The translations under genes and the position numbers were made by a program. From positions 38,281-102,280 of the forward strand of contig WION01000199.1 of the NCBI GenBank assembly GCA_015039365.1: 64,000 nucleotides of DNA, given 5' to 3'. Positions 3,588 through 59,918 of this stretch are shown one piece after another; the first letter of the stretch is position 1; the number at the start of each line of letters is the position of its first letter. The notes beneath the pieces are model-generated. The model saw only the letters and a program-made list of their open reading frames with translations. It searched no databases and was not told where the DNA came from. Source of the DNA: Amanita rubescens. Its lineage: Eukaryota > Basidiomycota > Agaricomycetes > Agaricales > Amanitaceae.

Positions 3588-4251
3588 ATCACCGGGGACC
3601 TGATGGTCAAATCGAGCGCTACAAGGCCCATCTCGTCGCCCAAGGTTTCTCGCAGGTAGAAGGTATCGACTATAACGAAACTTTCGCACCGGTGACGAAA
3701 TTCAACTCAATACGACTACTTCTCGCCCTCTCTGCCCGTTTTGACTGGGAAATTCACCAAATGGACGTCAAGTCTGCTTTTCTGAATGGGGAACTCGAAG
3801 AGGAGATCTATATCCGAGTCCCACCTGGCTACAACGCTGCTCCCGGAACTGTCTGGCGACTCAAAAAGGCTCTTTACGGTCTGAAACAGGCAAGTCGAGA
3901 ATGGTACCGAAAATTCTCAAGTGAGCTCGGTGCTCTCGGTTTCACTCGAATTCAAGCCGACCACTGCGTTTTCTACAAGAACGTAAACGGCCACCACATC
4001 ATAATCGCGGTCTACGTCGACGACAACCTTATCATTTCTGACTCACCAGATCTCGTGACGCAAACGAAGAAGGACCTCAGTTCATGCTTCGACATGACGG
4101 ATCTCGGCGAGGTTCACTGGATTCTAAACATGGAAGTCACACGCGACCGACCAAAGCAAACCATTAGGCTATCCCAATCGCAATACATCGAGGATATCCT
4201 CGAAAGACATGGAATGGCTGACTGCAAACCAGCAGCTACCCCAATGGAGGC
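3588..4251 (+). pseudogene. Copia reverse transcriptase fragment (old element)
   Basis: The frame opens just after the palindrome and reads through typical copia RT blocks: RGPDGQIERYKAHLVAQGFS, FAPVTKF, QMDVKSAFLNG, KALYGLKQASREW, and the catalytic YVDD at 4013-4024. It ends at TPMEA, where the young element's LTR begins. The fingers and everything upstream (integrase, protease, gag) are missing, so it is inactive. Confidence 0.88.
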
Positions 4252-4956: not shown

Positions 4957-4970
4957 GGTTATGGGCCCCG
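4957..4970 (+). other. Half-tRNA primer-binding site (initiator tRNA-Met type)
   Basis: GGTTATGGGCCCCG directly follows the LTR. It is complementary to an initiator-tRNA-Met anticodon arm (GGGGCCCAUAACC). Drosophila copia primes reverse transcription with a cleaved initiator tRNA half paired at a GGTTATGGGCCC-type site, and this element appears to do the same. Confidence 0.7.
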
Positions 4971-7439: not shown

Positions 7440-7631
7440 TTTACTTTCTAGTATTGACACTAGATAGTAAAAATACTATATTCTTGTCATTTCTGACATG
7501 AACGACATTAAGCTTAAGAAATCAGGACGGAAATTACATCATCACATATATTCTTATGCCTTATTATTATTTAAACCTTTTCTTACGAAAAATCTTCTTA
7601 GATTTTAAACAAACTTAACCAAAGTAAGAAA

Positions 7632-10600
7632 ATGTCTTCTTCCAATTCGATAAACTCCATTGTTCCTGTCCTTACTGGATCAAATTGGCTTGCATTCGAA
7701 AGACTTATGACTGCGTACTTGAACAGTCAAGGTCTTGGTGCACATATTGATCCTAAACTTGACTGGCCCAGAGATCTTGAACCGTCTGAAAAAGCGGCAA
7801 TAAAGACATCTGACATAAAGCCAGATCAATTAAAAACCCTTAAAGAAATTCGCAAAGAATACGTCGAATTTAAAGAGGACAATATGAAAGCCAAAGGTTA
7901 CATTACCTTAAAACTAGCACCTAATCTTGTACACCTTGTTGACGATAAAAATGATAAAGCCGAAGTCCTTTGGAAATCTCTAAAGGATAAATTTGGTAAA
8001 CAAGGTCTGGCTGCTACGTTTGGACTCTATAGACAAATTGTCGACTGGAAACTCAAAGAGAATTCCAATCCAAACACTCAAGTTCCGCATCTTATGGACT
8101 TGATTAATAGAGTGTCAAACCAAGGTGTAACCTTAACCGTCAAAATGCAAATTATGACGATCCTACATGCCTTACCTCCTTCATGGGACAGCTTTGTCGC
8201 AAATCTGTTGGCACATTCCGCAGATGATGACACTGTAGATGAATTCCTTAATCTCATATCTGAGGAATGGTCCCGAAGGAAAGGTAACAGGAACAATGCC
8301 AATACTTCTGTTGTCACGAGAGGGAATAAACATTCTAACTCTCAAGTAGTTGCAAATATGGCACGCCAACAATTGCAACAAGGACAACCTCGCACCCCTT
8401 GGAATTCCTATCGTGGGAAATCCTTTCGAGGCAGAGGTGGAAGAAAACCAATGGGAAATCGAAGAAACCCAACACAACATACTTCGACAGGTGGACCATC
8501 TAATGGACCAAAACATACACCTGGCCAATCTCAGACTCCTTTTAGACCCCAATGGGCTGGTCAAGTCCCTAATCAGTCTAAAGGACCAAATTGGGAACGC
8601 AATAAGGCAGCTAAAGCAAAGAATCGTGCGAATAAACTTGCTGCTCGGACAGCAGCTCAATCAACACTTGGTTCTGGGCATGCTATGGCATCTTCGACAT
8701 CAGCATCTTTACCTCTGATTGCCAGAATTGGAGATCAGGTAATGACAGATTTTGATGAAGAATTTGTCCCCAAGATTTACAAGTACAAAGGTACTCGTGC
8801 GGTTCCCACGGACGACTTCATGGGGAGAATTGATGAGATATCCGAAGATTCGGGAGATTCTGTATCCAGAGATGTACAAAAAGTACGAACTGAATCAACG
8901 GACTACTCTGATATCTTTGATTCTGCAATATTTGCAGATACTAAGGATACTCAAAGTTTGGACGATCTTGCTAGTCCTATCTTTGCTTCCTCTAGTATAT
9001 CCCATCATCAAACCGATAATGAAGGATATCAAACAGATAATGAATCACATCAATCTGAGGCCAATTCTTCAGGGTATGAAGGACTTTATACCGATGAAGA
9101 GCCTGAGGAACCAATGCCTGGTTCCTTTGATGATGAACAAATAAGTTGGTGGTATGTACATACCAGACAATATTATGTGGATCAAGTTCGACGAGCTAAT
9201 TTGGAAGCTCGAAGAATGAATACTAATGCACGCACCTTAGAACACTTACAAAATATGTTGAGAGGGATGGTAAATGACCATGACACTGTATCCCTCCGAC
9301 CAGAATCTGTAAGTTCATCAGATTTAAATTACTTTTACCAATCTGATCAAGATTCTGTTTACCATACGGCTCCAGAATCTATGGCATCATCTCAAATCCC
9401 AACAAGGCCTATTACGCCTTATGAAGATTTTTTCAATATATACGATTATCCAACTAATCGTACTATTGATACTGTACCGGTAATACCATCTAATGTACCG
9501 ATTGTATACCCTACACCAAGAAGATCTACGGATCTTCGAAATTTATATTATTTTGATGCCAATATGCGTGAAAACTTAAGTAATCATCAAAGAATAGCTC
9601 GTCTTTATGATCAAAATCATATAGATGAACTTTATAATCAATATAACTTGGATGAATTCATAATAGAAGAAAACAATCGTAGACGTGCTAATGTTATTAA
9701 CATTGGACATCTTCAAGATCCATATAATTTACCTTGTAGTAAATCACCTTCTTGCAAATGTCCTGAATGTTATAAAAATAATAAAGGACTTACAATATGG
9801 ATGTGTGACTCAGGTGCATCACATCATTTTACCGCACACTTAGAAGATTTTGTCAGCTATAAAAAATATGAAGTTCCTACTTCAGTATTTACAGCTGATA
9901 ATCAAGCAGATATATTAGGTATAGGGACTGTGATTTTGGATCACACTCTTAAAAATGGTTCGGTTTCAAGATTGAAACTTTATCCGGTCCTCCATATGCC
10001 AAGTGCCACACTACGACTAATAAGCAATGGAACATTGTGTAAACAAGGTTTTATTGCAAAACAAGATAATGATAGGATTTCTTTCTACAGAGAAGGCTCT
10101 GAAAACGCATCACTGGAAGGATTTCCAGGAGATGGTAACGAAACATTAATGTGGACAGAAGGTCAAATTATTAAACCTTCAAATTATAAATTAATGATGA
10201 CCACAATTAATGTTGTTGGATATGAAATTTGGCATCAACGGATGGGTCATCCTAGCCAACAAATATTAAAATTAGGCTCTAAAAACTTAGAGGGTTTCCC
10301 TCCCTTAACAATTCCTAAAGACTTAGAACCTTGTAACGGTTGTCTAAAAGGAAAAGCTGTTTCACAAAGCTTTCCTCTTTCAGAAAAACGTGCTGCCCAA
10401 CCCTTTGAACGTATACACTGTGACTTGATGACTTTTCCAATACAATCTTATCATAAACAAAAATATTTACTTGTAATATTTGATGATTGTACATCTCATG
10501 TATGGGTAAAACCATTACAGAAAAAGTCTAACGTCGCTGTAGTGTTTGAAGGATGGCACAAACAAATATACAACCAATATGGATATAACATAAAAATAGT

Positions 10601-13595
10601 TCGTTCCGATCGAGGGGGCGAATTTATGTCCACCAATATACAAGATTACTTAACTGATGTAGGAATTATTCATGAAAAATCTACTCCATATATACATCAA
10701 CAAAATGGAAAGGTTGAACGCATGAATAGAACACTTTGGGAAAAAAGTGAAGCATTGAGATTACATGCTTCATGTCCTCAATCTTGGTGGAACTTTGCGA
10801 TCGAAACTGCTGTACATGTTTATAATCGTACTCCACTTAGACGAACCAAATGGAAGACCCCTGTTGAAAATCTTACTGGAAAGAAACCTGATGTTTCTTA
10901 CTTTAAGATATTCGGATCTAAAGCTTGGGTATTTATCCCACATGAATCGCGCGAAAATAAATTAACACCAAGGTCTGAAATAATGACCTTTATTGGATAC
11001 GAACCGAATGCAAAAGCATACCGCTTCATGACAAATACAAATCAACTTCGAGTATCCACCCAAGCTGAATTTGATGAAACCAAATTTCCAAGAGCCAAAC
11101 CTCAAGATGAAAATTATACAAAAAACTTGGACCCTATCAGGCCTATTGAGCAGGATAATTCTGAAAACTCAGATAAAAATATCTCTGATGGTAAACCAGA
11201 TAATGAAGGAGATATTTCATCTGAACAGCAGCATTCAGATGATGATTTCTTTGATTTCAACTTTGAAAATCATCCTAGTTCTGATTCATCAGATAATGAT
11301 GATGATGACACTAAATGGGATGATAAATTAGAATCTTTCTTTGAAAAGAAAGATACATCTTCAAAAGACAAAGGTGCTGAATTAGATCAACCTACAGGTG
11401 TTGAATTAGATCTACCTGTACAAAGTCTTAAAGATAAACCTATTAAAGGAAAAGGCAAAGGAACTGCTAAAAAACCTGTAGAACCTACTCGAAGATCTGA
11501 AAGATCTAGAAAACCGGTTATACAGAAAGACAATGCTTATGGTAATAAAACACCATTAGAAATTGAAAAAGAAATTACAGAAGAACAAGATGTTGTTCGA
11601 GAATTAATTCAAGATCTTAAAGAAAAAGATAAATCTGATCCAAGACTTGATGTCACAATCAGATATTCTCTTAGATCTAAAATACGACAACATATTGATA
11701 AAGTTAAATTACTTTATTCAACATTACACAATGCTCAAATTAATGAAATGTCATGTCTCATCAAAGAGCATGGTAATGGTTTTCTGAATTACTTACTCGC
11801 ACAAGCAATTCCTGCCATTGATATTTCAAGAGATAATATCAGAGAATATCAATACAAAGATATTCAAAAAGTCAAAATTGCTGATCCCAAATCTTATGAA
11901 CAATGGGAGACAGCAATGAATGATGAAATGAAATCATTGAATGATAGAAAAATCTGGGAGCTTACAGAATTACCTCATAATCGTACACCTATTAAATGTA
12001 GATGGGTATATGATATTAAATCCGACGGTCGGAAAAAGGCTCGACTTGTCGCCAAAGGATTTTCTCAAAGACCTGGACTTGACTATGATGAAACGTTTTC
12101 GCCAGTGGCAAGATATGAAACGATTCGCCTTTTGTTAGCAATATCTGTGCTAGAAAAATGGGATATTGAAGCACTAGATGTTAAAACAGCCTTTTTGTAC
12201 GGAAATCTCGAAGCGGATATCTATATGCAACAACCAGAAGGTTATGTAGTCAAAGGCCAAGAACAAAAAGTTTACCAACTTAAAAAGGCAATATATGGAC
12301 TTAAACAAGCCTCATATGCCTGGAATAAACAAGCTAATAAATCCTTAGAGGATTTAGGATTTATACGCTGTTTATCTGATTCTGGCGTATACGTCAGAAG
12401 AGAAGACGACACTATAATAGTGTGTATAGTATATGTCGATGACATGCTTTTCATGGGTGACAGTACACCAGAAATTCATAAAGTTAAAAATGCTTTTATG
12501 AAGAAATGGGAATGTCACGATCTTGGAAAAGTTAAAGAATACTTAGGTATGCAAATCAATTACAATAAGAACATGGGTACTCTTATTATTGATCAACATA
12601 CATATGCTAAAAAGGTTGTAACAAGATTTGGTTTAGAAAATTGTAAACCAACTCGTACACCTTTACCAACAGGATATATTCCAACTGCTGCTACAAAAGA
12701 ATGTACAGCAGAGATGCGATCTTATTTTCAACAAATAATAGGATCGTTGTTATATCTTGCATTAGGAACAAGACCTGATATTACTTATCAAGTAATATTA
12801 ATGTCTCAGTTTTGTGCAAACCCAAATGAAGAACACATACAGAAAGCATTATACATAGTACGCTATGTGAATACCACTGTACAAACTAAAATAGTTTATA
12901 ATGGTTTAAATAAAGAAGGCTTTGTAGCTTTTACTGATGCTGACTGGGGTGCTGACAAGATTACAAGAAAATCTGTCACTGGATATATAGTAAAACTCGC
13001 AGGAGGAGCTATATCATGGGTTTCACGAAAACAAAAAGTAGTGGCACTGTCTTCAACTGAAGCAGAATACATGTCAATGTCTGATACATCAAGACAAATA
13101 GTTTGGATTGAATCACTTATGAGTGAACTCGATTTTCCAATTAAAACTATTTTCTTATGTTGTGACAATCAAGGAGCAATGTTCTTAGCCAGTAACCCTG
13201 CACAAGAACATCGTTCAAAACATATTGACATAAGATTCCACTACATTAGAGAATGTGTCGAAAGTGAGAAAGTTAAACTCACATACATTCCTACCAATGA
13301 ACAAGTTGCGGATATAATGACCAAAAATCTACCATATTCAAAATTTGTAATATTCCGAATGAAGATGGGATTGATCCTAGATGATAGTCAAATATCATTA
13401 AGCAATCATATTAAGGCATCACAAACTTTTGCTAATTATATTAAAAGTAAAACCCTTAATAAGTCCCCAGGACAACATAGTAAAATATTTGAAAGGATTC
13501 AAGATCTTGAAGTGCGAGGATATCTTGAAGAAATCTTTAAATACTATGAAAGAGAAAATGATAAATTAACTACCCTTTTGAAAGCTAATAAATAA
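7632..13595 (+). CDS. Copia Gag-Pol polyprotein
   Basis: A single 1987-residue ORF without frameshift. Gag (about residues 1-235) is of the copia/UBN2 type and is followed by a basic, then acidic low-complexity linker (about 250-700). A Cys-rich knot (C702 onward, CSKSPSCKCPEC) precedes the aspartic protease (DSG at 726-728). The integrase has an HHCC zinc domain (H868, H873, C901, C904) and a DD35E core (D931, D993, E1029). After a charged linker come reverse transcriptase (YVDD at 1601-1604) and RNase H (D1769, then TEAEY and DNQ). All catalytic residues seen are present. The polyprotein copies the element RNA and integrates the cDNA. The ~60-residue tail after RNase H is charged and helical. 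Confidence 0.97.
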   Translation: MSSSNSINSIVPVLTGSNWLAFERLMTAYLNSQGLGAHIDPKLDWPRDLEPSEKAAIKTSDIKPDQLKTLKEIRKEYVEFKEDNMKAKGYITLKLAPNLVHLVDDKNDKAEVLWKSLKDKFGKQGLAATFGLYRQIVDWKLKENSNPNTQVPHLMDLINRVSNQGVTLTVKMQIMTILHALPPSWDSFVANLLAHSADDDTVDEFLNLISEEWSRRKGNRNNANTSVVTRGNKHSNSQVVANMARQQLQQGQPRTPWNSYRGKSFRGRGGRKPMGNRRNPTQHTSTGGPSNGPKHTPGQSQTPFRPQWAGQVPNQSKGPNWERNKAAKAKNRANKLAARTAAQSTLGSGHAMASSTSASLPLIARIGDQVMTDFDEEFVPKIYKYKGTRAVPTDDFMGRIDEISEDSGDSVSRDVQKVRTESTDYSDIFDSAIFADTKDTQSLDDLASPIFASSSISHHQTDNEGYQTDNESHQSEANSSGYEGLYTDEEPEEPMPGSFDDEQISWWYVHTRQYYVDQVRRANLEARRMNTNARTLEHLQNMLRGMVNDHDTVSLRPESVSSSDLNYFYQSDQDSVYHTAPESMASSQIPTRPITPYEDFFNIYDYPTNRTIDTVPVIPSNVPIVYPTPRRSTDLRNLYYFDANMRENLSNHQRIARLYDQNHIDELYNQYNLDEFIIEENNRRRANVINIGHLQDPYNLPCSKSPSCKCPECYKNNKGLTIWMCDSGASHHFTAHLEDFVSYKKYEVPTSVFTADNQADILGIGTVILDHTLKNGSVSRLKLYPVLHMPSATLRLISNGTLCKQGFIAKQDNDRISFYREGSENASLEGFPGDGNETLMWTEGQIIKPSNYKLMMTTINVVGYEIWHQRMGHPSQQILKLGSKNLEGFPPLTIPKDLEPCNGCLKGKAVSQSFPLSEKRAAQPFERIHCDLMTFPIQSYHKQKYLLVIFDDCTSHVWVKPLQKKSNVAVVFEGWHKQIYNQYGYNIKIVRSDRGGEFMSTNIQDYLTDVGIIHEKSTPYIHQQNGKVERMNRTLWEKSEALRLHASCPQSWWNFAIETAVHVYNRTPLRRTKWKTPVENLTGKKPDVSYFKIFGSKAWVFIPHESRENKLTPRSEIMTFIGYEPNAKAYRFMTNTNQLRVSTQAEFDETKFPRAKPQDENYTKNLDPIRPIEQDNSENSDKNISDGKPDNEGDISSEQQHSDDDFFDFNFENHPSSDSSDNDDDDTKWDDKLESFFEKKDTSSKDKGAELDQPTGVELDLPVQSLKDKPIKGKGKGTAKKPVEPTRRSERSRKPVIQKDNAYGNKTPLEIEKEITEEQDVVRELIQDLKEKDKSDPRLDVTIRYSLRSKIRQHIDKVKLLYSTLHNAQINEMSCLIKEHGNGFLNYLLAQAIPAIDISRDNIREYQYKDIQKVKIADPKSYEQWETAMNDEMKSLNDRKIWELTELPHNRTPIKCRWVYDIKSDGRKKARLVAKGFSQRPGLDYDETFSPVARYETIRLLLAISVLEKWDIEALDVKTAFLYGNLEADIYMQQPEGYVVKGQEQKVYQLKKAIYGLKQASYAWNKQANKSLEDLGFIRCLSDSGVYVRREDDTIIVCIVYVDDMLFMGDSTPEIHKVKNAFMKKWECHDLGKVKEYLGMQINYNKNMGTLIIDQHTYAKKVVTRFGLENCKPTRTPLPTGYIPTAATKECTAEMRSYFQQIIGSLLYLALGTRPDITYQVILMSQFCANPNEEHIQKALYIVRYVNTTVQTKIVYNGLNKEGFVAFTDADWGADKITRKSVTGYIVKLAGGAISWVSRKQKVVALSSTEAEYMSMSDTSRQIVWIESLMSELDFPIKTIFLCCDNQGAMFLASNPAQEHRSKHIDIRFHYIRECVESEKVKLTYIPTNEQVADIMTKNLPYSKFVIFRMKMGLILDDSQISLSNHIKASQTFANYIKSKTLNKSPGQHSKIFERIQDLEVRGYLEEIFKYYERENDKLTTLLKANK

Positions 13596-13598
13596 CTT

Positions 13599-13610
13599 AG
13601 CGAAGGGGAG
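13599..13610 (+). other. Polypurine tract of the young copia
   Basis: The purine-rich run AGCGAAGGGGAG directly abuts the 3' LTR, the expected place for the plus-strand primer. Confidence 0.8.
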
Positions 13611-14315
13611 TGTTGAACTTATAATATACGATATACATACAGTATATAGTAAATATAAGTGATATCATTAGTTTACACTAACTAATGTAATAACGCTCAG
13701 TTACTTACTCGTCTCTCAACCAATCATAATAGTGGATGATTGAGTGTGAGATAATATATTGACATGAGAATATATTCGACATATTCTCATACTCATCTAC
13801 CAATCATAATAGTGGATGATTGATGATGAGAACATATTCTGACATGAGAATATCCTAGCGATATTCTCATAAGATCATCCAATCATAATAGTGGAACTAT
13901 TGATGATGTGAATATATGTTGACATGAGAATAGAAGACATATATACGTTATGGTTATCGACCTATCACATTGAAGATTGATAATGTGATGAGTCAGTCAA
14001 TATAATTGATGAGTCAAGTGCTGTGCAAAGCTATGCATTGCTGTACAATAGCTGTGCATTGCTGTGGAATGACGCCTTATGAGTCAAATACCTTTGACTC
14101 ATACTGATAAGACTCTTTGTACTTATTTGTAGTTTAGTAGTATATAAACTGTACTCTAGTAGCGTCAATCCCTATCCTATTATCCTCTCTACTGTCTACT
14201 GTTGAGCCCCAGCTCCAGTAAGCTCTTAACAACTCCACACCACACTCGGTAAGTAGTACATTCCATGTACTAGACTGCGCTGCTCGCTAGGGACTTGTTC
14301 CCCCTAGTTTCAACA
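13611..14315 (+). repeat. 3' LTR of the young copia
   Basis: Identical to 4252-4956 except C instead of T at 14247. It is followed by the target duplication GAGGC. Confidence 0.96.
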
Positions 14316-15035
14316 GAGGCAAACCTCAAGCTCGAGAAACTCGACGCCGCTGAAGTGAACGTTACTGAGTATCAACGACTCATCGGTTCACTCATGTACG
14401 GATCTATTGGTACTAGATTCGACGTTGCGCATGATGTGGGCGTACTTTCACGCCATAACCATGCACCTGGCAGACGACATCACACTGCTGTCAAACGAGT
14501 ATTCCGCTACCTTCGAGGCGCCTCTGACACCTATATTCTCTACGACGGCAAGTCCGCTATTGAAGGACCAGTAATCTACTGCGACGCAGACTGGGCAGGC
14601 GATCCTAACAACCGCAAGTCCGTTTCCGGATATACTGCTATCCTCTCCGGTGCCGCTATCAGCTGGTCATCCAAAAAGCAAGCAACCGTCTCTCTTTCCT
14701 CTACCGAAGCCGAATATATCGCTGCTGCCCGCGCCGCTCAAGAAGCAACCTGGATTCACACTTTCCTTTCCGAGATTGGTCATCCACTCAAAAAACCGAT
14801 TACGCTCTACGTGGACAATCAATCTGCCATCAAACTCATTCAAAATCCAGTTGCACATGACCGGACAAAGCATATCGATATCAAATACCATTTCGTTCGA
14901 GACACTCAAGCTAGAGGAATCATCAAAGTTGAGTATTGCCCGACAAATGATCAAGTTGCCGATGTTCTGACAAAACCGCTATCACGCGAAAAACACAAGC
15001 GTTTTACGGAGCAGATGGGACTTAGAACTGCCTAG
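14316..15035 (+). pseudogene. Copia RT tail and RNase H of the old element
   Basis: This continues the frame of 3588-4251 after the inserted element: the RT connection (LIGSLMYGSIGTRFDV), then RNase H with CDADWAGD, KQATVSLSSTEAEY and YVDNQSAIKL, ending at the 15033-15035 stop. It is open throughout, so damage to the old element lies mainly at its 5' end and in the insertion. Confidence 0.88.
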
Positions 15036-15517: not shown

Positions 15518-18500
15518 TGTTTTTCACGAATATGTGGTGTACTTGCATTCTGTTGGTCATAGGAAAAAAATGTGATGGAGCTGCCTTTCACAAAATGTGC
15601 ACTGTCACTCACTTGCTGTTGGTCATATGAAAACATGTGATGAGACTGCTTTGCAAAATGTGCAATGTTACTTACAAACTGTTGGTCAAAGGATGTGATG
15701 AGACTACCTTTCACAAACATGTGCTGTCACTCACATTCTGTTGGACAACATGTGATAAGACTGCCTTCCTAGCATTGTGCAATATCACTCACTTGCTGGT
15801 TGGTCATAGGAAAGCATGTGTTGAGACTGTCTTTCACAACATGTGCACCATTGCTCACTTCCTTTTGACCAAAGGAACAGATTCAGTGTCACCACCTTTC
15901 ACAACATGTGCAATGTTACTCGAAAAGATGTGATAACACTACCATTCATAAAATGTACAATATCACTTACTTCCTGTTGGTCATAAGAAAAAATGTGATT
16001 AGACTGCCTTTCACAAAATGTACAATGTCAAGGCTCACTTGCTGTTGGCCATAGGAAAATATGTAATGGCACTGCCTTGACACATTGTGTAATGTCACTC
16101 ACTTGCTGTTGGAACTGGTCATAGGAATAAAAGTGATAAGATTGCCTTTCACAAAATGGGCAATGTTACTCACAACCTGTTGGTCATAAGGCAAAATATA
16201 ATGAGGCTGCATTCACAAATGTGTGGTTTTACTTGCATTCTGTTGGTCATGGAAATAATGTAATGAGAACCTTTCACAACATTTGCAATTTCACTCACTT
16301 CCTGTTGGTCAGTGATGAGACTGCCTTTCTCAAAATGTACAAAGTCACTCACAAGCTGTTGGTCATAGGAAAAAAGTGGTAATTCAGCCTATCATAAAAT
16401 ATATAGTCACTGACTTGCTGTTTGTCATATGATGAGAGTGACTTTTACAAAACATGCAATGTCACTCACAAGCTGTTGGTCATAGGAAATGATCTGATGA
16501 GATTGCCTTCCACAAAATGAGCAATGTCACTTGCAATCTGTTGGACATCAAAACAGAAGTGATGAGACTGCCTTTCACAAAATGTGCAATATCACTCACA
16601 TCCTGTTGATTGTGGGAAATGATCTGATGGGACTGCCTTTCACAAAATGTACAATGCCACTCACAAGCTGTTGGTCATGGGAAAAGATGTGATGAGACTG
16701 CCTTTCACAAAATATTCAATATTACTCACTCTCTGTTGTTCATAGGAAAAAATGTGATGAGATAGGCTTTCACAAAATGTGCAATGCCACTCACCTTCTG
16801 TTGGTCATATGAAAAGATGTGATGAGACTGCCTTTCACAAACTCTGTAATGTCACTCACTTTCTGTTGGCCATAGGAAACATGTGATGAGACTGCCTTTC
16901 ACAAACTCTGTAATGTCACTCACTTTCTGTTGGTCATAGGAAAGATGTGATGAGACTGCCTTGATATGTCACTCACTTGCTGCTGGTCATAGGAAAAGAT
17001 GTGATGAGATTGCCTTATGAATGGGTAATGTCACTCACAACCTGTTGGACATAGGGAAAGATGTGATGAGACTGCTTTCACAAATGGGTAGTGTCACTTG
17101 CTTTCTATTGGTCATAAGAAAAAATGTGATTAAGCTGCCTTTTACAACATGTGCAATGTCACTCACTTGCTGTTCATCATATGAAAAAATGTGATGAGAC
17201 TCCTTTTTTGCCACTCACTTTCTGTTGGTCATATGAAAGGAAGTGATGAGACTTCATGTCACAAAATGTGCAATGTCACTCACAACCTGTTGGTCATAGG
17301 AAAAGAAGTGATGAGATTGCATTTCACACAGTGGGCAATGTTACTCACAAGCTATTGGTCATAGGGACAGATGTGAGACTGCCTTTCACAAAATGTGCAG
17401 TGTCACTCACTTGATGTTGGCCATATGAAAGCATGTGATGAGACTGCTTTCACCAATGTGTGGTATCATTCACATTCTGTTGGTCACAGGAAAAATGTGA
17501 TAAGACAGCCTTTCAAACATTGGGCAATGTCACTGACAAGCTGTTGGTCATAGGAAAGGACACATAGAGCAGCCTTTCAGGAATACTTGAAATGTTACTC
17601 ACATAGAACTGTTGGCCATTATAGGCAAACTTTTCATATGGTCATCTTTTGAATCATTAAACCAGTATGACATGATGCTAACCCCCTATGTTTATACAAA
17701 AAAATTCAGTGCTTTTCACAAAACAGCCAGTATCATTCACAATCTGTAGAGCAAAAGGATTGTCCAGATTGTCTTGTAGCAGATTGGCCTGCATCACTTA
17801 CTTCCTTTTAAAAGAATTAGGATAATAAAATTGAATGAAAGAAAACAATCCCACTGACTCTCTTTTAAAGTATTGCATATGATGAGCTCATATCTCACAA
17901 AAATATTACATACATCCTGTTTGTTTTGTAATTGCTTGTGATGAATGTTTGAAAAGGAGACATATTTACCGTCTGTTATTTTGGGACTCATGTAATGTTT
18001 ATGAGCAGACAGAAAGGAAATCTCACTGACTTTCTGTTATTAATCCAATGAGGCTTGTTGAGACCATCTTTCAGATAACATTATGTCACTAACCTTCTAT
18101 TGTTCATTGGGTTGTGTTTGATAAACTGCTGCACAATGAAGTTGCTTACTTTCTTTAAGCAGGTCAAATGTTGTGTGAGGCAGTCACACTGTATCACTCA
18201 CTCCCTGCCCATGAGAGACTGGGTTGACAAGTCTGCTTACAATGATTATAGATTAACTCACTTCCTATTGGTCATATGATGCACCATGGGATCATTTACC
18301 CAAATCAAAATTGAGTCATGTCACTCACTTCCTGTAGATTATGGGACAACCCTGCTGATCACAAAAAAAAGCATTACTCACAAACTGTTGTCATGAGACA
18401 ATATATCAGATCTATCTTAGTTCAATGTCACTTACCCACTGATATCAATATCATCAGATCCTGCCACCAAGAATATGGCAACAACTAACCTGTGCTTCAT

Positions 18501-18562: not shown

Positions 18563-19960
18563 CTGATGCACTTGTTGCAAAGATTTATCATTCCAGACCA
18601 AGGTCACCTACCTTCCTGTCCACCTATTTCTGTGCATTCTTTCTATGGTGATATGTAGTTTGACAAAATACATACCCAGAAATGTGGAAATTTTGAAAAA
18701 ACCATGAGAAAGCCATGATCCCATGTCCAATCTTTACATCCCAGAGCATGTCTGAGCAATGTCAATGTTAGTGAGTGACATTTTGAATATGACATTCACC
18801 GAAGTGCAGATTTAATACAAAGACCAAGATTATTCATCTGTGTTGAAACAAACAGCTGATGTATGCTTTCATTGTCTATTGCATCAGCAGTTTGCTGAGT
18901 TAATTCAGCACAATTCTTCTCAGGTAAATCCATGTCTATGAAATGACATTACTACCATGTTTCAGGAAGAAATCTTGTCATTCTCACCTTCCAACTGCAC
19001 ATATGCCTTGGGAGGATATTTGGCATCCAAAACTTTAGGAAGATAAACTTTCTGAAAAGTGATTTCAGCAATTTCCCTGGCTCTCTCCCACTTATCTTCA
19101 TCCTTTGAATCAGTCAAGTTGACAAATTCACTTGCTATTTGACCATCAAACTTAGTGAATATAACCACCAAAGGAACTGTAAAGGACTAGTCAGTGCACT
19201 GTGGTGAATTTTGTGGAAATTTGGCCAATGGAAAGCAGATAACAACAAGATAAGAACTTACCACTGCCTGTCCCTTTATTGAAGAATTCAAGTTCTGTGG
19301 GCAGAATGGGACGAGGGCTGTCCATGGGTATACAGTACCTACAGGAAATCAGGTCAGACAGTACTGTAAAGGGAAAATGCAAAATACCAAATTGCATGCA
19401 ACTGATTCTTCAGCTCAGTTTCTGCAGACCTCTTTTCAATGAACTTCCAAGCAAGCTCCAATTCATCAGTTGAACCAGATTCAAAACCCATAGAGTCATG
19501 GAAGATAAAGTCACTTCCAGGGTATGTAATTTGATGCTCAATACCATGCATGCCTCTCTGTTATCCTTGATTGTGAATGGATACATCTATACATCATTAT
19601 CTGGCTCACCTCAATTGATGGCACCAAATGAATCACAGACTGTTCAAGCTGATTACCTGCAAGAAACTTGACAGTCAAAGGAAGCACAAAGTCCAACTGA
19701 CATACCATCCTTGTCATATATGCTGGTCTTTGTCCCCTTTGCTACACCACAAACCTTCTCAAGGATGGTTGTCTTGCCTGCATTAGCCCTTCCAATGACA
19801 AGGATGCGAAAGTGTGGGCATAGATAGCGTTCCCTGAGTACTTGAACATGTGTCTCATGATCATCATGATCTGCATCTGATATGTGTCAATCAGGGATTA
19901 ACAATGCTGAGACATATAAATTAGCCTACTCAAAGAAGGTGCACTAGTTGTAGCTGCCAT
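15518..19960 (-). CDS. P-loop GTPase gene A with single-codon exon array, 3' end cut by copia
   Basis: The start is ATG 19960-19958. Conserved exons are 19960-19930, 19876-19706, 19656-19610, 19557-19388, 19338-19262, 19176-18988, 18935-18800 and 18751-18676. They encode a G domain: P-loop GRANAGKT (residues 39-46), DSMG as G3 and TKFD as G4. Further exons are 18623-18612 (12 nt), 18562-18560 (GAG), 18507-18490 (18 nt) and 18438-18436 (TGG), all phase 0. The array of one-codon exons then runs to 15547. The encoded tail is Lys/Gln/Glu/Leu-rich and starts WFEEGKKKTDREIG. The old copia LTR replaces the expected last exons, so the allele is probably truncated. Paralogue of the gene at 55882. The substrate is GTP; the pathway is unknown. 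Confidence 0.8.
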
Positions 19961-23541: not shown

Positions 23542-26500
23542 ATGATGTCAGCAGACCCACCTCAGGTAGAAGTGAATACTGGTATCTTTGCTGGATTCCA
23601 GAATGTCATTGTTATGGATGGCCAATTCATAGAGGTATTGCATTTCAGCATTATTACACCAGGATTTTGTCAATAATGAAGACTCATACATAGATGAACT
23701 ACTATCTTTCAGACCCTTCTGACATTGATCTACCTCCTTTACCTGCTATTAAACATTCTAGTACTTTCTTTACAGGTCAAGATAAGTATTTGCAGAAGCT
23801 AAAGGACCATTTTACCTCCCAAGATCAAGGACAAAGGAATTTTTTCCTATTGCATGGTTTAGGTGGGATTGGAAAGACACAGATTTGCCTTAAATTCATT
23901 GAAGAAAATACTGATTTGTGAGTATCTTATAATATTAGTATGGCAATTTAAGTAACTGTCATTATAATGAACCTCTTCAAGGTTCTCTGACATATTCTGG
24001 ATCAATGCTTCTTCAGAGAAAAGTGTTGAATTCATGCTCACACAAATATCCTCAACCTACTGTACTTCACCAGATGGTAGACCCTCAGCCAGATCTGCTC
24101 TTCATTGGATCTCTCAAAGGCACAATTTTTTGATGGTGTATGATGGAGCAGATGAACATTACTCAGTAGTTGAGAATTTCCTTCCACCAGGAAATGGAGG
24201 AAATGTTATGATAACAAGTAGGAATATTGGGTTGAAGAAGTTTGCATTGAGCAAGAACTCAATGGAGATTCATGGGATGGAAGATGAGGATGCTATTTCT
24301 TTGCTTCTGAAGTCAGCCATGCTTGATGACACAGATGATGATATCTATAATCTGGCACAGAAGTTTGTGTCACAATTGGATGGAATACCCCTTGCCATTG
24401 ACCAAGCAGGAGCATATATGCATTCCTGTGGTTGCAGCATTAATGACTATTTGGCATTGTACACAAGATACAAGCACAAATTAATGAGGGACACTCCTGG
24501 ATTTGAGGGTGCCTCAGATTATGGAACATCTACATATGGGACATGGGACATTTCCATAAAAAAGATGGAGGATATGGCTGCAAAAAATAGTTCACAGGAA
24601 TCTGTTGGAGCACAAAGTGCCATCAAGCTCTTGAGGATTTTTGCTTTCCTGGATCATGCCAATATACCACAAGAATTATTCAAAAATGCTGCTGAGAATT
24701 ACAAGGAAAGAAATATTGAGGATCATGTGTATGTTTCATCATCATTGAGTTTACTGGATGATGAAACTGTGTTCTTGGGGGAAGACGGGGATTGGGACAA
24801 ATTACATTTTCTGCATGGCATCCAGGTTTTACTCTCCTTCTCTTTAATCAGGAGTCATAATCACTTGTATTCTATGCACCTACTAGTAAATGCCTGGAGT
24901 AGGAACTGCATACCAAAAACACAAGTAACTGATCAATATTACAGAGCAAGAGCACTTTTATCCTGTTCAATAGCCCTTGACTGGAATACTGATAATTATG
25001 AATTCTGTCAATCACTCACACCACACATCAGGTCAAACTTTTTGCATGGATTGGAATTAAAGTTGAATGACAAGTACTATGATGATGAATATGCAAGATT
25101 TGCACTTGCATTTGATCGTGCTGGGAGCTGGGATGAACAAGAAAAATTGTTACATGTTGCAGTGCATCAAAGAAAAATGAAACTTGGATTGGACCACCCA
25201 GACACTCTTATTAGCATGGGAAATTTGGCAACAGCATACAGGAATCAGGGAAGGTGGGATGAGGCAGAGAAGCTTCAGATTGATGTAATGAATGCATTCA
25301 AAGTAAACTTTGGATCAGACCACCCAGGTACTCTCACCAGCATGTCCAATCTGACATCAACATACATAAATCAGGGAAGGTGGGATGAGGCAGAGAAGCA
25401 TCAAATAGGTGTGATTGATGCATTCAAAACAAAGCTTGGATCAGATCACACGGACACATTCACCAGCATGGCCAATTTGGCATCAATATATAGGAATCAA
25501 GGGAAGTGGGATGAGGCAGAGAAGCTTCAGATGGATGTAATAGATGGATTCAAAATAAACCTTGGATCAGACCACCCATCCACTCTCGTCAGCATTGCCA
25601 ATCTGGCATCAACATACAGGAATCAGGGAAAGTGGGACAAGGCAGAGAAGCTTGAGATGGATGTGATGAATGCATTCAACACAAAGCTTGGATCAAACCA
25701 CCCTTCCACACTCACAAGCATGGCCAATTTGGCATCAACATATAGGAGTCAGGGAAGGTGGGATGAGGCAGAGAAGCTTGAGATGGATGTGATGAATGCA
25801 TTCAAAACAAAGTTTGGATCTGACCACCCAAACACTCTCAGTAGCATGGACAATTTGGCATCAACATACAGGAATAAGGGAAGGTGGGATGAGGCAGAGA
25901 AGCTTGAGGTGGATGTGATGAATGCAAGAAAAACAAAGTTTCAATCAGTCCATCCTTCCATTCTCACCAGCATGTCCAATTTGGCATTAACATACAAGAA
26001 CCAGGGAAAGTGGGATGAGGCAGAGAAGCTTCAGACAGATGTGATGGATGTGTTCAAAACAAAGTTTGGATCAGACCACCCTTCCACTCTCAGCAGCATG
26101 GTCAATTTGGCATCAACATACAGGGATCAGGGTAGGTGGAATGAGGCAGAGAAGCTTCAGATAGAAGTGACAAATGCATTTAAAACAAAGCTTGGACCAG
26201 ATCATCCATCCACTCTTGGCAGCATGGCCAATTTGGCATCAACATACCAGAATCAGGGAAGGTGGGATGAAGCAGAGAAGCTTGAGATAGATGTGATGAA
26301 CACATCCAAAACAGAACTTGGATTAGACCACCCAGATACACTCACCAGCATAGCCAATTTGGCATCAACATATAGGAACCAGGGAAGGTGGGATGAGGCA
26401 GAAAAACTTCAGATGGATGTGATGAATGCAAGAAAAATAAAGCTGGGCTCAGACCACCCTTCCAGTCTCAGCAGCATGGCTAATTTGGCATTAATATACT

Positions 26501-28245
26501 GGAATCAGGGAATGTGGGACAAGGCAGAGAAGCTTCAGACAGATGTGATGGATGCAAGAAAAATAAAATTTGGATCAGACCACCAAGACACTCTTGCTGC
26601 CATGTCAAGTCTGGCATCAACATACAGGGGTCAGGGAAGGTGGGATGAGGCAGAAAAGCTTGAGATAGATGTGATGAGTGCATTCAAAACAAAGCTTGGA
26701 TCAGACCACCCTTCCACTCTCAGCAGCATGGTCAATTTGGCATCAACATACTGGAATCAGGGAAGGTTGGATGAAGCAGAGAAGCTTCAGATAGATGCAT
26801 TGAATGAGTTCATAACAAAGTTTGGGTCAGACCACCCAGACACTCTCACCACCATGTCCAATCTGGCATCAACATACTGGAATCAGGGAAGCTGTGATAA
26901 GGCAGAGAAGCTTGAGGTGGATGTGATGAATGCAAGAAAAGTAAAGCTTGGATCAGACCATCCAGATACTCTTGTCAGCATGTCCAACTTGGCATTAACA
27001 TACTTCAACCAGGAAAGGTGGGATGAAGCACAAAAGCTGCAGATAGAGGTGATGAATGCAAAAACAACAAAGCTTGGATCAGACCACCTAGACACTCTTA
27101 CCACCATGTCCAATCTGGCATCAACATACAAGAATCAGGGAAGGTGGGATGAGGCAGAAAAGCTTGAGATAGATGTGATGAATGAATTCAAAACAAAGTT
27201 TGGATCAGACCACCCAGACACAGTCAGTAGTATGGCCACTTTGGCATCAACATATAGGAATCAGGAAAAGTGGGATGAGGCAGAGAAGCTTGAGACAGAT
27301 GTGATGAATGTATTCAAAACAGAGTTTGGATCAGACCACCCAGACACTCTCACCACTATGGCCAATCTGGCATCAACTTACTGGAATCAGGGAAGGTTGA
27401 GTGAGGCAGAGATGCTTGAGACAAATGTGATGAATACAAGAAAAACAAAGCTTGGATCAGACCACCCAGACACTCTTCTCAGCATGTCTGATTTGGCATT
27501 AACTTACTTCAACCAGGAAAGGTGGGATGAAGCACAGAAGCTGCAGCTAGAGGTGATGAATGTGAGAAAAACAAAGCTTGGATCAAACCATTCAGACACT
27601 CTTAGCAGCATGACCAATTTGGCATCAACATACAAGATTCAGGGAAGGTGGGATGAGGCAGAGAAGCTTGAGATAGATGTGATGGATGGACTTAAAACAA
27701 AGTTTGGATCAGACCACCCATACACTCTCACCACCATGGCCAATCTGGCATCAACATACAGGAACCAGGGAAGGTTGGATGAGGCAGAGAAGCTTCAGAT
27801 GGATGTGATGAATGCATTCAAAACAGAGTTTGGATCAGACCACCCAGACACTCTCACTGGCATGTCTAATTTGGCATCAACCTACAGGGATCAGGGAAGA
27901 TGGGATGAGGCAGAGAAGCTTGAGACAGATGTGATGAATGCATTCAAAGCAAAGCTTGGACCAGACCACCCATCTACTCTTGCTAGTATGTCCAATTTGG
28001 CATTAATATATTTGAAGCAAGAAAGGTGGGATGAAGCACAGAAGCTGCCAATGGAGATGTTGAATGAAGAAGGGTTGAATGATGCAGAGGAACTGGAGTT
28101 GGATGTGATAAATGCCAAAACAGTGAAGCCTGAATCAGGCCATCTGGATGCAACTGTCACCAGTATCACCAACCAAGCCCCTTCCAATCAAGTTCTTCTG
28201 ACAGTTCAGCAAGATCATAACCAACATGAGAACATGGTAAACTAA
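23542..28245 (+). CDS. NB-ARC ATPase with C-terminal TPR array (fungal NLR-like, STAND)
   Basis: Three exons: 23542-23634, 23694-23917 and 23982-28245, with 59- and 64-nt GT-AG introns; 1526 residues. A short N-terminal module (NTGIFAGFQNVIVMDGQF) is followed by NB-ARC: FTGQDKYLQKL, P-loop GLGGIGKT (K92), Walker B LMVYDGAD (about 157-163), MITSRN, and GIPLAIDQAGAYM as the GLPL motif. From about residue 517, 42-residue kinesin-light-chain-type TPRs follow, 22 full plus degenerate ones at each end. Such STAND proteins act as ATP-switch receptors in heterokaryon incompatibility or innate recognition; a sensing role is inferred. The short acidic/Gln-rich C-terminus has no recognised domain. ATG 23545 is an alternative start. 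Confidence 0.92.
25211..28059 (+). repeat. 126-bp tandem repeats encoding TPRs
   Basis: Twenty-two full 126-bp units encode the motif NLASTYRNQGRWDEAEKL followed by DVMNAFKTKLGSDHPDTL. A degenerate unit precedes and another follows. Units are highly alike at DNA level and in phase with codons, so unequal crossing over can change repeat number without breaking the frame. Confidence 0.93.
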
Positions 28246-55881: not shown

Positions 55882-58800
55882 ATGGGAAATACTGCTAGTG
55901 CACTGTCAGGTAATTCAATATTCATGTCTTGACATTGTCTATATTTGCCAATTGCTGCAGATATAGATGATGCACATGTTAAAATGCTCAGGGAACGATA
56001 CCTATGCCCACACTTTCGCATCCTGGTCATTGGGAGGGCCAATTCTGGAAAGACAACTATCCTTGAGAAGGTCTGTGGTGTATTAAAGGGAACAAAGCCT
56101 ATCATATATGACAAGAATGGTAAGTTAGCTGAGTTTTGTGCTTCCTCTAAATATTCAATTCCTTGTAGGTGAAATACTTGCTGAAACTCATTTCCTTGAG
56201 AAAGTTTCAAAAGGAATAAAGTCCATCATAAGTGACAAGAATGGTAAATTAGCTGGACTTGGTTCTTCCTCTAAGTATTCAGTTCCCCATAGGTAAAGAA
56301 CTATTGGCTGCTGGGACTACCCATTTGGTCCCATCTATTGAGGTGAGTCAAATGATAATATATGAATGTTTGAGTCATTCCTGTTCTTCTTGTTAACAGA
56401 GAGGCTCACATGATATTGAACATCAAATTACATACCCTGAGAGTAACTTCATTTTTCATGACTCTGAGGGATTTGAATCTGGTTCTGCTAAGGAACTAGA
56501 GATTGTTTGGAAGTTTATTGAAACAAGATCTACAGAAACTGAGCTGAAAAATCAGTTGCATGCAATTTGGTATTTTGTTTTGGCCCTTTGGAGAACTGGC
56601 TGACCAAGCCCCATGAAGGTACTGCATACCCATGGACAGCTCTCATCCTATTTTACCTACAGAATTTGAATTCTTTAACAAGGGGACAGGCAGAGGTGGG
56701 TCAATTGACCAAGTATATTATCACACACACACACATTATGATTGGCTGTCACTTTAAAAAAATAATATATCAAGCACCAAAGGTACTGACTAGCAAATTG
56801 TTCCTCATTACAGTTCCTTTGGTTGTTATCTTTACCAAATTTGATGCTCAAATGATCAAGGAATTTGCCAACTTGGCTGATTCAGAAGATAAATATAGGT
56901 GGGAGAGGGCTAGGGAAAATGCTGAAAGTGCTTTTCAGACACTTTATCTTCCTAAAGTTTTGGATACCAAATATCCCCCAAAGGCATATCTCCGATTGGA
57001 AGGTGAGAATGATGAACATTGTTTCATCAAAACAGACATAATGTTGCTCAATATGTAGACATGCATTTACCAGAGAAGAATTGTCCTGAGTTGACTCAGT
57101 GCACTGCTGATATAATTGATGATGCTAGCATGCATCAACTATTTGTGACAACACAGATGAATAACCTTGATCTCTGCATTATGTCTGCAATTCAGTGAGC
57201 ACTGAGGTTCACATTCACATATCTCTTTCTAACATTAGCCTTGTTCAGACATGTCATGAATAAAAACTATTTCATGTGGAGTGATGTTACTACAGTTTTT
57301 GCTAAATTTCCACATTTCTGGGTCAGCATCTTCTTCCAACATATCCATATGAGCATAAAAATTAACTGCCAGCAGAAGGAGAGAGTGGTGGGTAGCTTTT
57401 ATACAAAATGATAAATAGTTCACAAAATGCAACAGGAGGTAAGTAACACTTCAATGCTTTACTGTGGAAGATAAATTATGTTTCAGATGTCTGGCAAACA
57501 ATTGGATGAAATACCAGTGAGTTTTTATCATATCTTTGGTGGCAGGATCTGATGTTATGTATATGTAAATAACAGTTAGTATGTGACATTTAACTAGCAT
57601 ACGTCTGGTGTTTCTCTTATGAGAATAGTTTGTGAGTGATGTTTCCTTTGATTATTAGCATTCTTGTGTCATGATTAATAGGAAGTGAGTGGCAATGCTC
57701 AGTTTCTAGTGGATTGTTTCATGTTACATCATGCAACCAACAGGAAGTGAGTACATATGTACATATGTGTCTTTGTAAGCAGTCTCATCATTCCCATTTT
57801 CTAATCAACAGGAAGTGAGTGACACAACACTTTTTTTATCTTACATTCACATATCATGCCACATCAAATTTGCAAAAAGAAAGTGAGCAACCATGACACT
57901 TGTGTGGTTTGTCAAATGTGATTCAACCAACAACAGAAAGTTGGTAACAAGCTTTTATCTGAAAGAGTGACTTATTGTGAATTCATTAATAACAGGTGGC
58001 AGTAAGGGAATTGCCTTTATTTCTGCTGAAACAAGGTATCATGATGTAACTATTTTGAAATTAGCTTGTGAGTGGCAATGTACATTTTTGTGAAAGGCAA
58101 TCTCAGTGCATCCTTTCCTACTATGACCAACAGGGAGTGAGTGACATTGCATGTTCTCATGAAAGATTAGTCTCATCACGTATTTTGCAGTATGACCAAC
58201 AGGGAGTGAGTGAAATTGCATGTTCTTGTGAACAACAGTCTCATTACATCTTTTCCTATGACCAACAGGGAGTGAGTGTCAATGTACACCTTTGTGAAAG
58301 ACAGTCTCATTGCGTCTTCTTTTTTTATGACCAACAGCTTGTAAGTGACAATACACACTGTGTGAATGGCAGTCTTATCACATCCTTTCCTATGGCCAAC
58401 AGCATGTGAGTGACAATGTACACTGTGTGAAAGGCAGTCATCACATCTTTTCCTATGGCCAACAGTATGTGAGTGACATTGCACATCTTGTGAAAGGTAG
58501 TCTCTCATCACAGCATTTCCTATACTGGACAGGATGTAAGTAATATTGCACATTTTCATGCAAGGTAATCTCATCATATCTTTTGTTATGACCAATAGAT
58601 TGTGAGTGACATTGCACAATTTTGTGAGAGGCAGTCTCATAAGCATGATCAACAGGGTGTGAGTGACACTGCACACTTTGTGAACACAGCATCATCACAT
58701 CTTTTTTCCTGATTACCAGTTTGTAAGTGGCACTGCACAATTTTCTGTGACAGTCTCATTACTTCTTTACAACCAATAGCAAGTGAGTCACACACATTAT

Positions 58801-59918
58801 TGTGAATGGCGGTCTCTCATCTCATCCTTTCACATGCTGGACAGGATGTGAGTGATATTGCACATTTTTATGCAGGCAATCTCATTACATCTTTCATTAT
58901 GACCAACAGGGAGTAAGTGACATTGCACATTTTGTGAAAGGCAGTCTCATCACATGTTTTTTCTATGTCCACTAGTATGTGAGTGGCATTACATATTTTT
59001 GTGAAAAGCAGTCTCATCACATCTTTTCCTATGACCAATAGCTTGTAAGCAATAATTCACATCTGGCCCTGTGAAACTCAATCTCATCACAACTTCTTCT
59101 ACAACTACCAGAAAGTGTGTGACAATGCACATGATTTTGTGAAAGCAGTCTCATTGTATATTTTCTCATGACCGATAGCTTGTGAGTGACAATACTGTAG
59201 GTTTTGTGAAGTCAGCCTCATCACAACCAACAGCAAGTGAGATGTTGCATACTTTTGTGAAGGACAATCTCATCACATTGCTTCTCATGACTAATAGCAA
59301 GTGAGTGAAAATTCTTGTCTCAAGCCATGATTCTTTGACATATTATTATGTCCTTTGTTTATCAGAAAGTGAGTATATGCATAACATCATTCCTTTTATG
59401 CTCTTGTGTGACATCATTTCATTCATAGATTGTAAGTTTCAATTTCAGCCTATCCAATCCCACCTTATAGGAACACTTCTCTTACCTCTGTGACTTTCCC
59501 TGATTTCTAGGTGAGTAATGTTAATTCATGAGGTATCAATTGTATCATATCAGTCATGTTAGCGTGTAGGTCCAGTGTTAAATCAAAGGTTTTACACTCT
59601 CTCATAATCAGCATGAACTTTACTATGTATTTGGAGATGATGAACAAATGCTTAATAAAGTAACTGTATGGGGTATCTTTCTTTTGTAATAAGAAACTGA
59701 GGCAATTGAAATTAGCCCACTGGCTGTCAAAATTTAGTTTGTATGTAAATCACTGCACTTCATTTACTCTATTTGTGTTTAAACTTTTAAGCAATTGTTC
59801 TCATTGCCAAACTATCATTTTGGATCAAGAAACCATTCCTGTCATCAGTCATGGAAGCCTTGCACCAATGCAAGAGAAATGGCTATTTTCAGAAGCTGAA
59901 AGCCAAAATTACTCGTAA
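55882..59918 (+). CDS. P-loop GTPase gene B with single-codon exon array
   Basis: Exons: 55882-55909, 55961-56119, 56169-56243, 56293-56342, 56400-56569, 56619-56695, 56814-57002, 57059-57194, 57249-57321, 57376-57387, 57436-57438 (GAG), 57487-57516 and 57576-57578 (TTA). About 28 more one-codon exons and one 6-nt exon follow to 59431, then probable C-terminal exons (59612-59659 and one ending at the 59918 stop). The N-terminus MGNTAS fits an N-myristoylation signal. G domain: GRANSGKT (residues 34-41), DSEG, TKFD. Exon 56169-56243 is an extra in-frame duplicate absent from gene A. The array tail starts LFEEEKK. The acceptor before 56619 (GAAG) is weak. Paralogue of 15518-19960. The exact join after the array is uncertain. 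Confidence 0.8.
57436..59431 (+). repeat. Array B: tandem introns separated by single-codon exons
   Basis: Thirty three-base exons: GAG 57436, TTA 57576, TTT 57629, GAA 57682, GAA 57744, GAA 57812, AAA 57880, AAA 57937, CTT 58065, GGA 58134, GGA 58203, GGA 58269, CTT 58338, CAT 58403, TAT 58466, GAT 58533, ATT 58599, GGT 58656, TTT 58720, CAA 58780, GAT 58845, GGA 58910, TAT 58976, CTT 59042, AAA 59112, CTT 59179, CAA 59234, CAA 59298, AAA 59366, ATT 59429. One 30-nt exon (57487) and one 6-nt exon (GTGGCA, 57996) also occur. Introns run 48-67 nt, mostly GTGAGTGAC...CCAACAG, with CTCATCAC and CTTTTCC before the acceptor. All exons are phase 0 and none is a stop. Confidence 0.82.
59432..59611 (+). 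other. End of the array; unclear splice sites
   Basis: After the ATT codon the regular pattern fails. An acceptor at 59510 (TTTCTAG) is directly followed by a donor GTGAGT at 59511 with no exon between, a zero-length or recursive splice site. An acceptor at 59553 is followed by short candidate exons. The coding path to 59612 cannot be fixed from sequence. Confidence 0.4.

Follow-up and report, generated by a model that had tools for sequence, protein, structure and literature searches.

A protein linker probably written one codon per exon in a GTPase-like gene family of Amanita rubescens

Introduction

A plus-strand, GTPase-like gene of Amanita rubescens contains a protein linker that is very probably written one codon per exon, with the intervening introns removed stepwise by recursive splicing. 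The gene lies in a 64,000-nucleotide stretch of GenBank assembly GCA_015039365.1 (contig WION01000199.1, positions 38,281 to 102,280 of the forward strand), which we call the window; coordinates are those of the window unless a contig or locus is named. This predicted codon-per-exon structure is supported by the lengths of the exons, by their phase, by the near-absence of stop codons, by the spread of such arrays through the genome and by the codon-by-codon match of two other arrays to proteins from relatives.

Very short exons are thought to be hard to recognise because neighbouring splice complexes interfere, a difficulty raised, for example, in a study of one such exon (PMC4674806). If our reading is correct, many genes of this genome carry dozens of these exons consecutively and would provide natural material for studying intron definition, recursive splicing and the accuracy of ordered splicing. 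Introns could also allow a stretch of protein to be lengthened or shortened by single codons with the frame intact. The arrays also fall in a blind spot of annotation: among the A. rubescens models examined, one (P0001) ends just before an array and another (P0088) skips one.

An array of predicted one-codon exons in the window gene

The array spans 57436–59431 on the plus strand, where reading by eye and by script gave 30 predicted exons of 3 nucleotides (nt) and one of 6 nt, separated by introns of 48–67 nt. Every codon is a sense codon in phase 0, with no stops. An initial annotation, made from the letters of the window alone, had reported the same number of exons and the same range of intron lengths, and our read-out reproduces both. 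It had also stated that phase 0 is fixed upstream, which agrees with our exon joining: the last codon of the exon ending in KFPHFW (57249–57321) is complete at 57321, and downstream of the array the frame reopens in phase 0 with the exon HELYYVFGDD (from 59612).

Both strands of the window were scanned with a regular expression of the form acceptor-N(k)-donor, with k from 0 to 15. On the plus strand, k = 3 returned 25 matches, all 25 of them inside 57400–59450, and every other value of k returned 0–3, bearing out the annotated recurrence of AG, three bases and GTGAGT. On the minus strand there were 30 matches at k = 3 (0–4 at other k), 23 of which fell at 15.4–17.7 kb in a second predicted array of one-codon exons. 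This second array (15518–18438, minus strand) belongs to a paralogue with GTPase-like exons at 18802–19880 and was delimited by pattern scan, exon read-out and comparison with paralogues.

Read out exon by exon on the plus strand, the window gene continues after FPHFW with a 12-nt exon encoding KERV (57376–57387), a one-codon exon GAG (E, 57436–57438) and a 30-nt exon encoding MSGKQLDEIP (57487–57516), followed by 29 one-codon exons and the 6-nt exon; the long run thus begins at TTA 57576, since the 30-nt exon splits off the first one-codon exon. Its first seven members are TTA (L, 57576–57578), TTT (F, 57629–57631), three GAA codons (E, 57682–57684, 57744–57746 and 57812–57814) and two AAA codons (K, 57880–57882 and 57937–57939), the second AAA having a weak donor, GTTGGT. 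Then come the 6-nt exon GTGGCA (VA, 57996–58001), CTT (L, 58065–58067), three GGA codons (G, 58134–58136, 58203–58205 and 58269–58271), CTT (L, 58338–58340), CAT (H, 58403–58405), TAT (Y, 58466–58468), GAT (D, 58533–58535), ATT (I, 58599–58601), GGT (G, 58656–58658), TTT (F, 58720–58722), CAA (Q, 58780–58782), GAT (D, 58845–58847), GGA (G, 58910–58912), TAT (Y, 58976–58978), CTT (L, 59042–59044), AAA (K, 59112–59114), CTT (L, 59179–59181), two CAA codons (Q, 59234–59236 and 59298–59300), AAA (K, 59366–59368) and, last in the array, ATT (I, 59429–59431).

Comparison with proteins from relatives

The strongest evidence that the predicted one-codon exons are read out in order is provided by two JGI-sourced proteins from relatives, P0047 (478 aa) and P0081 (418 aa). 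They are deposited on contigs of only 1,486 bp and 1,669 bp. Genes of this kind have too many introns to fit in that space, and both proteins therefore appear to be transcript-like. Guided spliced alignment of P0047 to a paralogous A. rubescens array, L031, passes through 48 one-codon exons, with 40 identical and 6 similar residues and a longest run of 47; 40 shuffles gave at most 16 identities and scores of at most 93 (against 235), and the reversed linker gave 14 identities. P0081 aligns likewise to the array L052 through 33 one-codon exons in a run of 33 (24 identical, 8 similar; score 153), compared with at most 10 identities and scores of at most 71 in 40 shuffles and 5 identities for the reversed linker; its last seven residues align poorly. 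Two of the L031 exons, encoding W and G, have GC donors (GCAAGT, at L031 positions 3251 and 4320), and both residues match P0047.

The peptides SADNAAAKER and YYGGEKISEKERDKRKDFVE had been read out of L031 before the P0047 sequence was retrieved; their counterparts in P0047 are SADDAAGKER and YYGGKKISEKERDHRRDFVE. The 20-residue peptide agrees at 17 of 20 positions and beats all 300 shuffles (score 93 against at most 43), and the 10-residue peptide agrees at 8 of 10, its score of 38 equalling that of the best shuffle. For two paralogous genes, inclusion of the one-codon residues in mature mRNA is thus indicated through intronless proteins from relatives; for the window gene, no transcript was found. 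Weaker support comes from P0055 and P0045, which reach 19 and 15 identities on the paralogue L037; none of the 10 shuffles run for each exceeded 11.

The alignments of P0047 to L031 and of P0081 to L052 were made with an aligner in which the splice reward was capped and GC donors were then allowed. An earlier spliced aligner was set aside because it rewarded good splice sites so strongly that long chains won whatever the residues. With the capped reward, support on the window genes was weak or lacking; there, P0059 slightly exceeded its 6 shuffles on the plus-strand gene (score 90.5 against 74.0; 11 against 9 identities), as it did on the copy L038.

Genome-wide distribution and gene family

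The pattern CAACAGNNNGTGAGTG (CAACAG-NNN-GTGAGTG) has 2,461 exact matches genome-wide, compared with 2 for the reversed pattern, so it is not a product of chance. It replaced a longer DNA pattern combining the donor with the branch-like motif, which had no matches. Where exons were read out, 220 strict matches correspond to 609 one-codon exons, from which the 2,461 matches extrapolate to an estimated ~6,800 one-codon exons in an assembly that includes near-duplicate copies of some loci, presumably haplotypes.

The genes that carry the arrays form a large GTPase-like family. Its best protein matches are A. rubescens models (F5887DRAFT), and members are also recorded from A. brunnescens, A. polypyramis and A. 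muscaria. One GTPase exon has matches at no fewer than 150 places in the genome (150 of 237 candidates were scored), and the GTPase exon of the window gene is found at 100% on contig C268. Contig C3 carries a near-identical copy of the window gene (98.95% over 7,639 aligned columns), and the minus-strand array of the window is 98.8% alike to that on C3. Three rare types of unit were listed completely across the genome (ATT 27, AAT 21 and TGG 13; n = 61). For at least 50 of these 61 units, one of the listed GTPase exons lies 0.9–11.7 kb upstream on the same strand (median 2.2 kb), against a random expectation of ~1.5%. Four of the other 11 are on C3 at 128.6–130.0 kb, with the GTPase exon C3:115096 beyond the 12-kb limit, and seven have no explanation by proximity to a GTPase exon.

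Constraint on frame, stops and splice sites

Among the predicted exons with intron-like neighbours on both sides, 355 of 364 are 3 nt long, 6 are 6 nt and 3 are 9 nt, and no such exon has any other length from 0 to 30 nt; these are internal exons of a few nucleotides bounded by AG and GT, as microexons are. Intron lengths, by contrast, are spread over all three length classes (299, 156 and 121; n = 576), so the restriction to whole codons applies to the exons alone. Loci L001–L030, which overlap larger stretches, were omitted from the 470-codon sample, from the peptide read-out and from the exon-length, intron-class, codon-usage and diverged-loci counts. The duplicates L038, L042 and L046 were also omitted from the exon-length count, and these three together with L048 from the intron-class, codon-usage and diverged-loci counts. 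The minus-strand array of the window and C3 were both kept in the exon-length, intron-class, codon-usage and diverged-loci counts, which doubles ~28 units.

Stop codons are almost absent from the 2,461 codon slots (TAA 0, TAG 0, TGA 2), whereas position-specific base frequencies from a 470-codon sample roughly predict 131 TAA plus TGA and 14 TAG; TGG occurs 13 times. TAG is the only clean stop test, since it creates no competing GTRAGT donor. In the intron-class and codon dataset the number of stops is raised, because L049 and L050 were chosen for holding TGA codons.

Four near-identical copy pairs differ by 27 substitutions at 12,249 other sites and by none at 2,316 splice-site positions (~5 expected by share), with a single change, CGA to CAA, in 591 exon sites and with 7 of 7 indels outside exons; although events are few and one array is partly common to two of these four pairs, this suggests that changes avoid exons and splice sites. 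A codon-level selection test on these pairs was abandoned because, with one exon change in 591 sites, they are too alike. Across eight diverged loci (164 introns) donor and acceptor are retained while many interior positions drop to 36–60%, an observation that is partly circular, because the scan demands GT and AG and picks good sites, and to which we give no weight.

We infer that the window gene itself is fully spliced. The initial annotation had proposed that all introns are removed, and exon lengths, the scarcity of stops, the copy pairs and the relatives' proteins speak for this in the arrays at large, while for the window gene the proposal keeps the standing it had.

Alternative explanations

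Several of the results gathered in this section weigh against one-codon exons being included in order, and some of them favour other explanations. The arrays might be minisatellites, each inside one large intron, with the outer exons joined directly and the 3-nt blocks never present in mRNA. Because exon lengths are all multiples of three, skipping a whole array would keep the frame, and deposited models behave in this way: P0001 (249 aa, on C268) stops at MSAIQ, before its array, and P0088 (407 aa, on a contig of 976,794 bp) joins FPHYW almost directly to the C-terminal part. An array is nevertheless present at the P0088 locus on C650 (L053), where k = 3 gives 12 matches and the other values of k from 0 to 12 give 0–1; the model treats it as an intron. 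However, the residues encoded by the one-codon exons of L031 and L052 recur in sequence in P0047 and P0081, respectively, stops are avoided and the copy pairs show no splice-site change, and we consider a minisatellite within one intron very unlikely.

Splicing may instead be noisy, each mRNA keeping a different in-frame subset of codons so that the linker becomes combinatorial. The introns of a young array hardly differ from one another (their mean similarity is 0.95 in L041, against 0.55 in L031) and all units are in phase 0, so that a donor could pair with any downstream acceptor; L031 also lacks one codon relative to P0047, and P0088 models complete skipping. Against this, almost the whole set of codons is represented in P0047 and in P0081, as ordered inclusion would have it, and isoforms were not seen. 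We regard noisy splicing as possible, though on the doubtful side.

Several comparisons with transcript-like proteins failed to support ordered inclusion. P0047 and P0081 are known as proteins rather than as gene structures, and their RNA origin follows only from the shortness of their contigs. Nine of the 11 peptides tested had no transcript match. Run with the first aligner on 13 arrays, six transcript-like proteins gave best matches no better than shuffles. Later alignments of P0045 and P0055 on L051 did not beat shuffles in score, nor did P0004 on the two window genes (62.9 against 66.2 and 47.4 against 49.0 in 6 shuffles) or P0059 on the minus-strand gene (65.4 against 65.7). On L033, P0004 scored 95 against 58, yet with 13 identities against at most 12 in 6 shuffles. 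A search with the predicted linker of the window gene found no match at E 0.001 among 126 candidates, and no transcript of that gene or of a close copy; a search with the P0047 linker returned P0047 alone.

A third explanation is decay, with introner-like introns having spread in dead GTPase-like copies and the window gene making no protein. The many copies would fit this, as would the Copia element near the minus-strand array, the two TGA units, which sit inside two arrays, and one extra base at about position 6310 of L031. This base precedes the exon that is homologous to HELLSLF and would disrupt the frame downstream of the array in that copy. The lack of TAA and TGA is itself open to another reading, for after CAG either makes a competing GTRAGT donor and their absence may partly be a splicing constraint. 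Yet frame and stops are constrained across arrays, and rare-type units lie downstream of same-strand GTPase-like exons far beyond random expectation; we therefore find decay highly improbable.

Codon choice and a zero-length splice site

Of the 609 one-codon exons, 94% have A or T as the third codon base, against 65% of the codons that these genes carry in ordinary exons (a sample of 2,461 codons in 45 matches, the agreement with the pattern count being a coincidence). CAA outnumbers CAG by 70 to 3 in one-codon exons, against 72 to 60 in ordinary exons, and GAT outnumbers GAC by 34 to 0, against 133 to 52; CAG, GAC and TTC are nearly or fully absent from one-codon exons. Synonymous choice thus tracks the base preceding the donor. 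This is so although CAG/GT is a strong donor context; a third base of A or T may serve to weaken the donors or to prevent exons from ending in AG.

Beyond the arrays, a zero-length AG/GTRAG site occurs in 8 of 10 regions examined (not in L032 or L034), 49–85 nt past the last codon, which for L052 was placed in a separate comparison. In the window gene this predicted zero-length exon is a ratchet-like AG/GTGAGT at 59509–59516 (plus strand), inside the intron that follows the array.

Proposed mechanism and known splicing systems

We lean towards the view that codon and exon are here one unit: the spliceosome would build a protein segment one amino acid per step, with the 3-nt exon as a ratchet carrying a one-codon payload, across ~6,800 exons that would make up a rapidly changing linker in this family, and with changes that are neutral to the frame. 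Introns of ~60 nt between codons would be removed one after another, each step adding one amino acid. Because a 3-nt exon leaves little room for the 3′ and 5′ splice-site complexes together, intron definition would have to deal with adjacent introns one at a time, and the order of removal would be sequential. The arrays probably grew as units of one intron and one codon were duplicated in tandem or exchanged unequally, as suggested by the homogeneity of units given above and by multi-unit periods found with Tandem Repeats Finder in the minus-strand array (307 and 372, for example). With each predicted exon a whole codon, gain, loss or skipping of a unit would cause no frameshift, and the length and sequence of the linker could change freely.

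Single microexons of comparable size are described in several systems: a 1-nt exon in Arabidopsis APC11, whose flanking introns were thought unlikely to be spliced together and for which intron definition and recursive splicing were proposed (PMC4674806); a microexon in plant VPS55 and a rice example of two adjacent microexons (PMC8831610); a single microexon in Fusarium CYP621A (PMC12940212); and a 3-bp exon in Drosophila homothorax (PMC7392893). They share with the present exons a length of 1–3 nt between complete introns and a tendency to be missed by annotation. These accounts, however, report one microexon per gene or, in rice, two adjacent, whereas the present genome has thousands of units, and 47 in unbroken succession agree with a transcript-like protein. 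The reasoning applied to the 1-nt exon of APC11 would apply about 30 times in the window gene.

In recursive splicing, ratchet points consist of an acceptor followed directly by a donor (PMC8605326, PMC6110457). The same order is found here, in the 3-nt units throughout and in the zero-length site of 8 of the 10 regions. Ratchet points leave nothing in the mRNA, whereas each step here would add one codon.

Schistosome micro-exon genes reportedly have short symmetric exons of ~6–36 nt, varied in length, and encode varied, secreted proteins. Runs of short symmetric exons and variable proteins are common to both systems; theirs differ in length, whereas ours are one codon each with a few exceptions of 6 and 9 nt.

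Similar introns also multiply in fungal genomes as introner-like elements (PMC4457414), and stwintrons are described as well (PMC8469720). The multiplication of similar introns is shared with the present arrays, which differ in being tandem units at one place of one family. Introner-like elements are said to insert into many genes and stwintrons to nest within one another. Many unrelated genes is not what we found, given the placement downstream of GTPase-like exons of at least 50 of the 61 units sampled for one pattern, with four more on C3 just past the limit and seven unexplained. Consecutive, alternatively spliced microexons are also reported for human RPS24 (PMC11162997, PMC12686416). Consecutive microexons are the likeness; the difference is that RPS24 has three exons only and that these are alternatively spliced. 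One of them is reportedly 3 nt long.

The initial annotation knew of no described gene with long runs of one-codon exons. In a literature search outside which most subscription journals lay, we likewise found, among the papers listed, no such runs in work on one-codon or consecutive microexons, fungal microexons, recursive splicing, introners or micro-exon genes, and nothing on single-codon exons, on Agaricomycetes microexons with introns or on Amanita microexons.

Other features of the gene and the window

The part of the plus-strand gene preceding the array suggests a GTPase-like protein through the motifs GRANSGKT, DSEGFES and TKFD, which we take to be GTPase motifs; Pfam gave only weak, sub-cut-off matches to this protein (AAA_23, E 0.0031; MMR_HSR1, E 0.0056). 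Exon joining places exon 1, encoding MGNTASALS and giving an open frame once joined, at 55882–55909, a GTPase-like exon with the P-loop GRANSGKT at 55961–56119, an exon that partly repeats the end of the preceding one at 56169–56243, and a further exon at 56293–56342. It is followed by the exon with DSEGFES (56400–56569), the exon with TKFD (56814–57002) and one containing FVTTQMNNLDLC (57059–57194); these three and the P-loop exon are also supported by paralogues.

Past the zero-length site, a possible extra one-codon exon CGT (R, 59563–59565, donor GTAGGT) is predicted only, its spacing resembling that of an L codon in L031. The HELYYVFGDD exon, recognised from paralogues, comprises HELYYVFGDDEQMLNKVTVW plus one base and probably ends at 59672, judging from the donor GTATCT. 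A C-terminal exon with IVLIAKLSFWIKKPF (IVLIAKLSFW) runs from 59792 at least to 59967 and resembles the C-terminal part of P0047.

An AlphaFold2 model of P0047, built from 41 sequences, has a predicted template modelling (TM) score, pTM, of 0.83. Within it, linker residues 319–329 and 337–359 have a predicted local distance difference test score (pLDDT) below 50, and a helix begins at residue 361. The best PDB match of this model is the immunity-related GTPase IIGP1 (1tq6), with E 5e-5 but low TM scores of 0.37/0.42.

Near the minus-strand array, 3587–15035 holds a Copia element with a 1,997-aa frame (7602–13595) between like tandem-repeat blocks ~9.36 kb apart, which are probably within its long terminal repeats. 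It is also flanked by two fragments resembling another Copia, so it is likely a nested insertion. On C3 (L039 1–5521, array from 5515) a Copia stretch 98% alike directly adjoins the homologous array at its beginning and apparently separates it from the GTPase exon C3:115096.

Elsewhere in the window, an open frame of 1,424 aa (23971–28245) matches NB-ARC and contains 23 stretches of TPR_10, encoded by 22.7 copies of a 126-bp unit. Several repeated open frames at 35.5–37.5 kb (minus strand) and 47.2–54.6 kb (plus strand) are putative cytochrome P450 copies.

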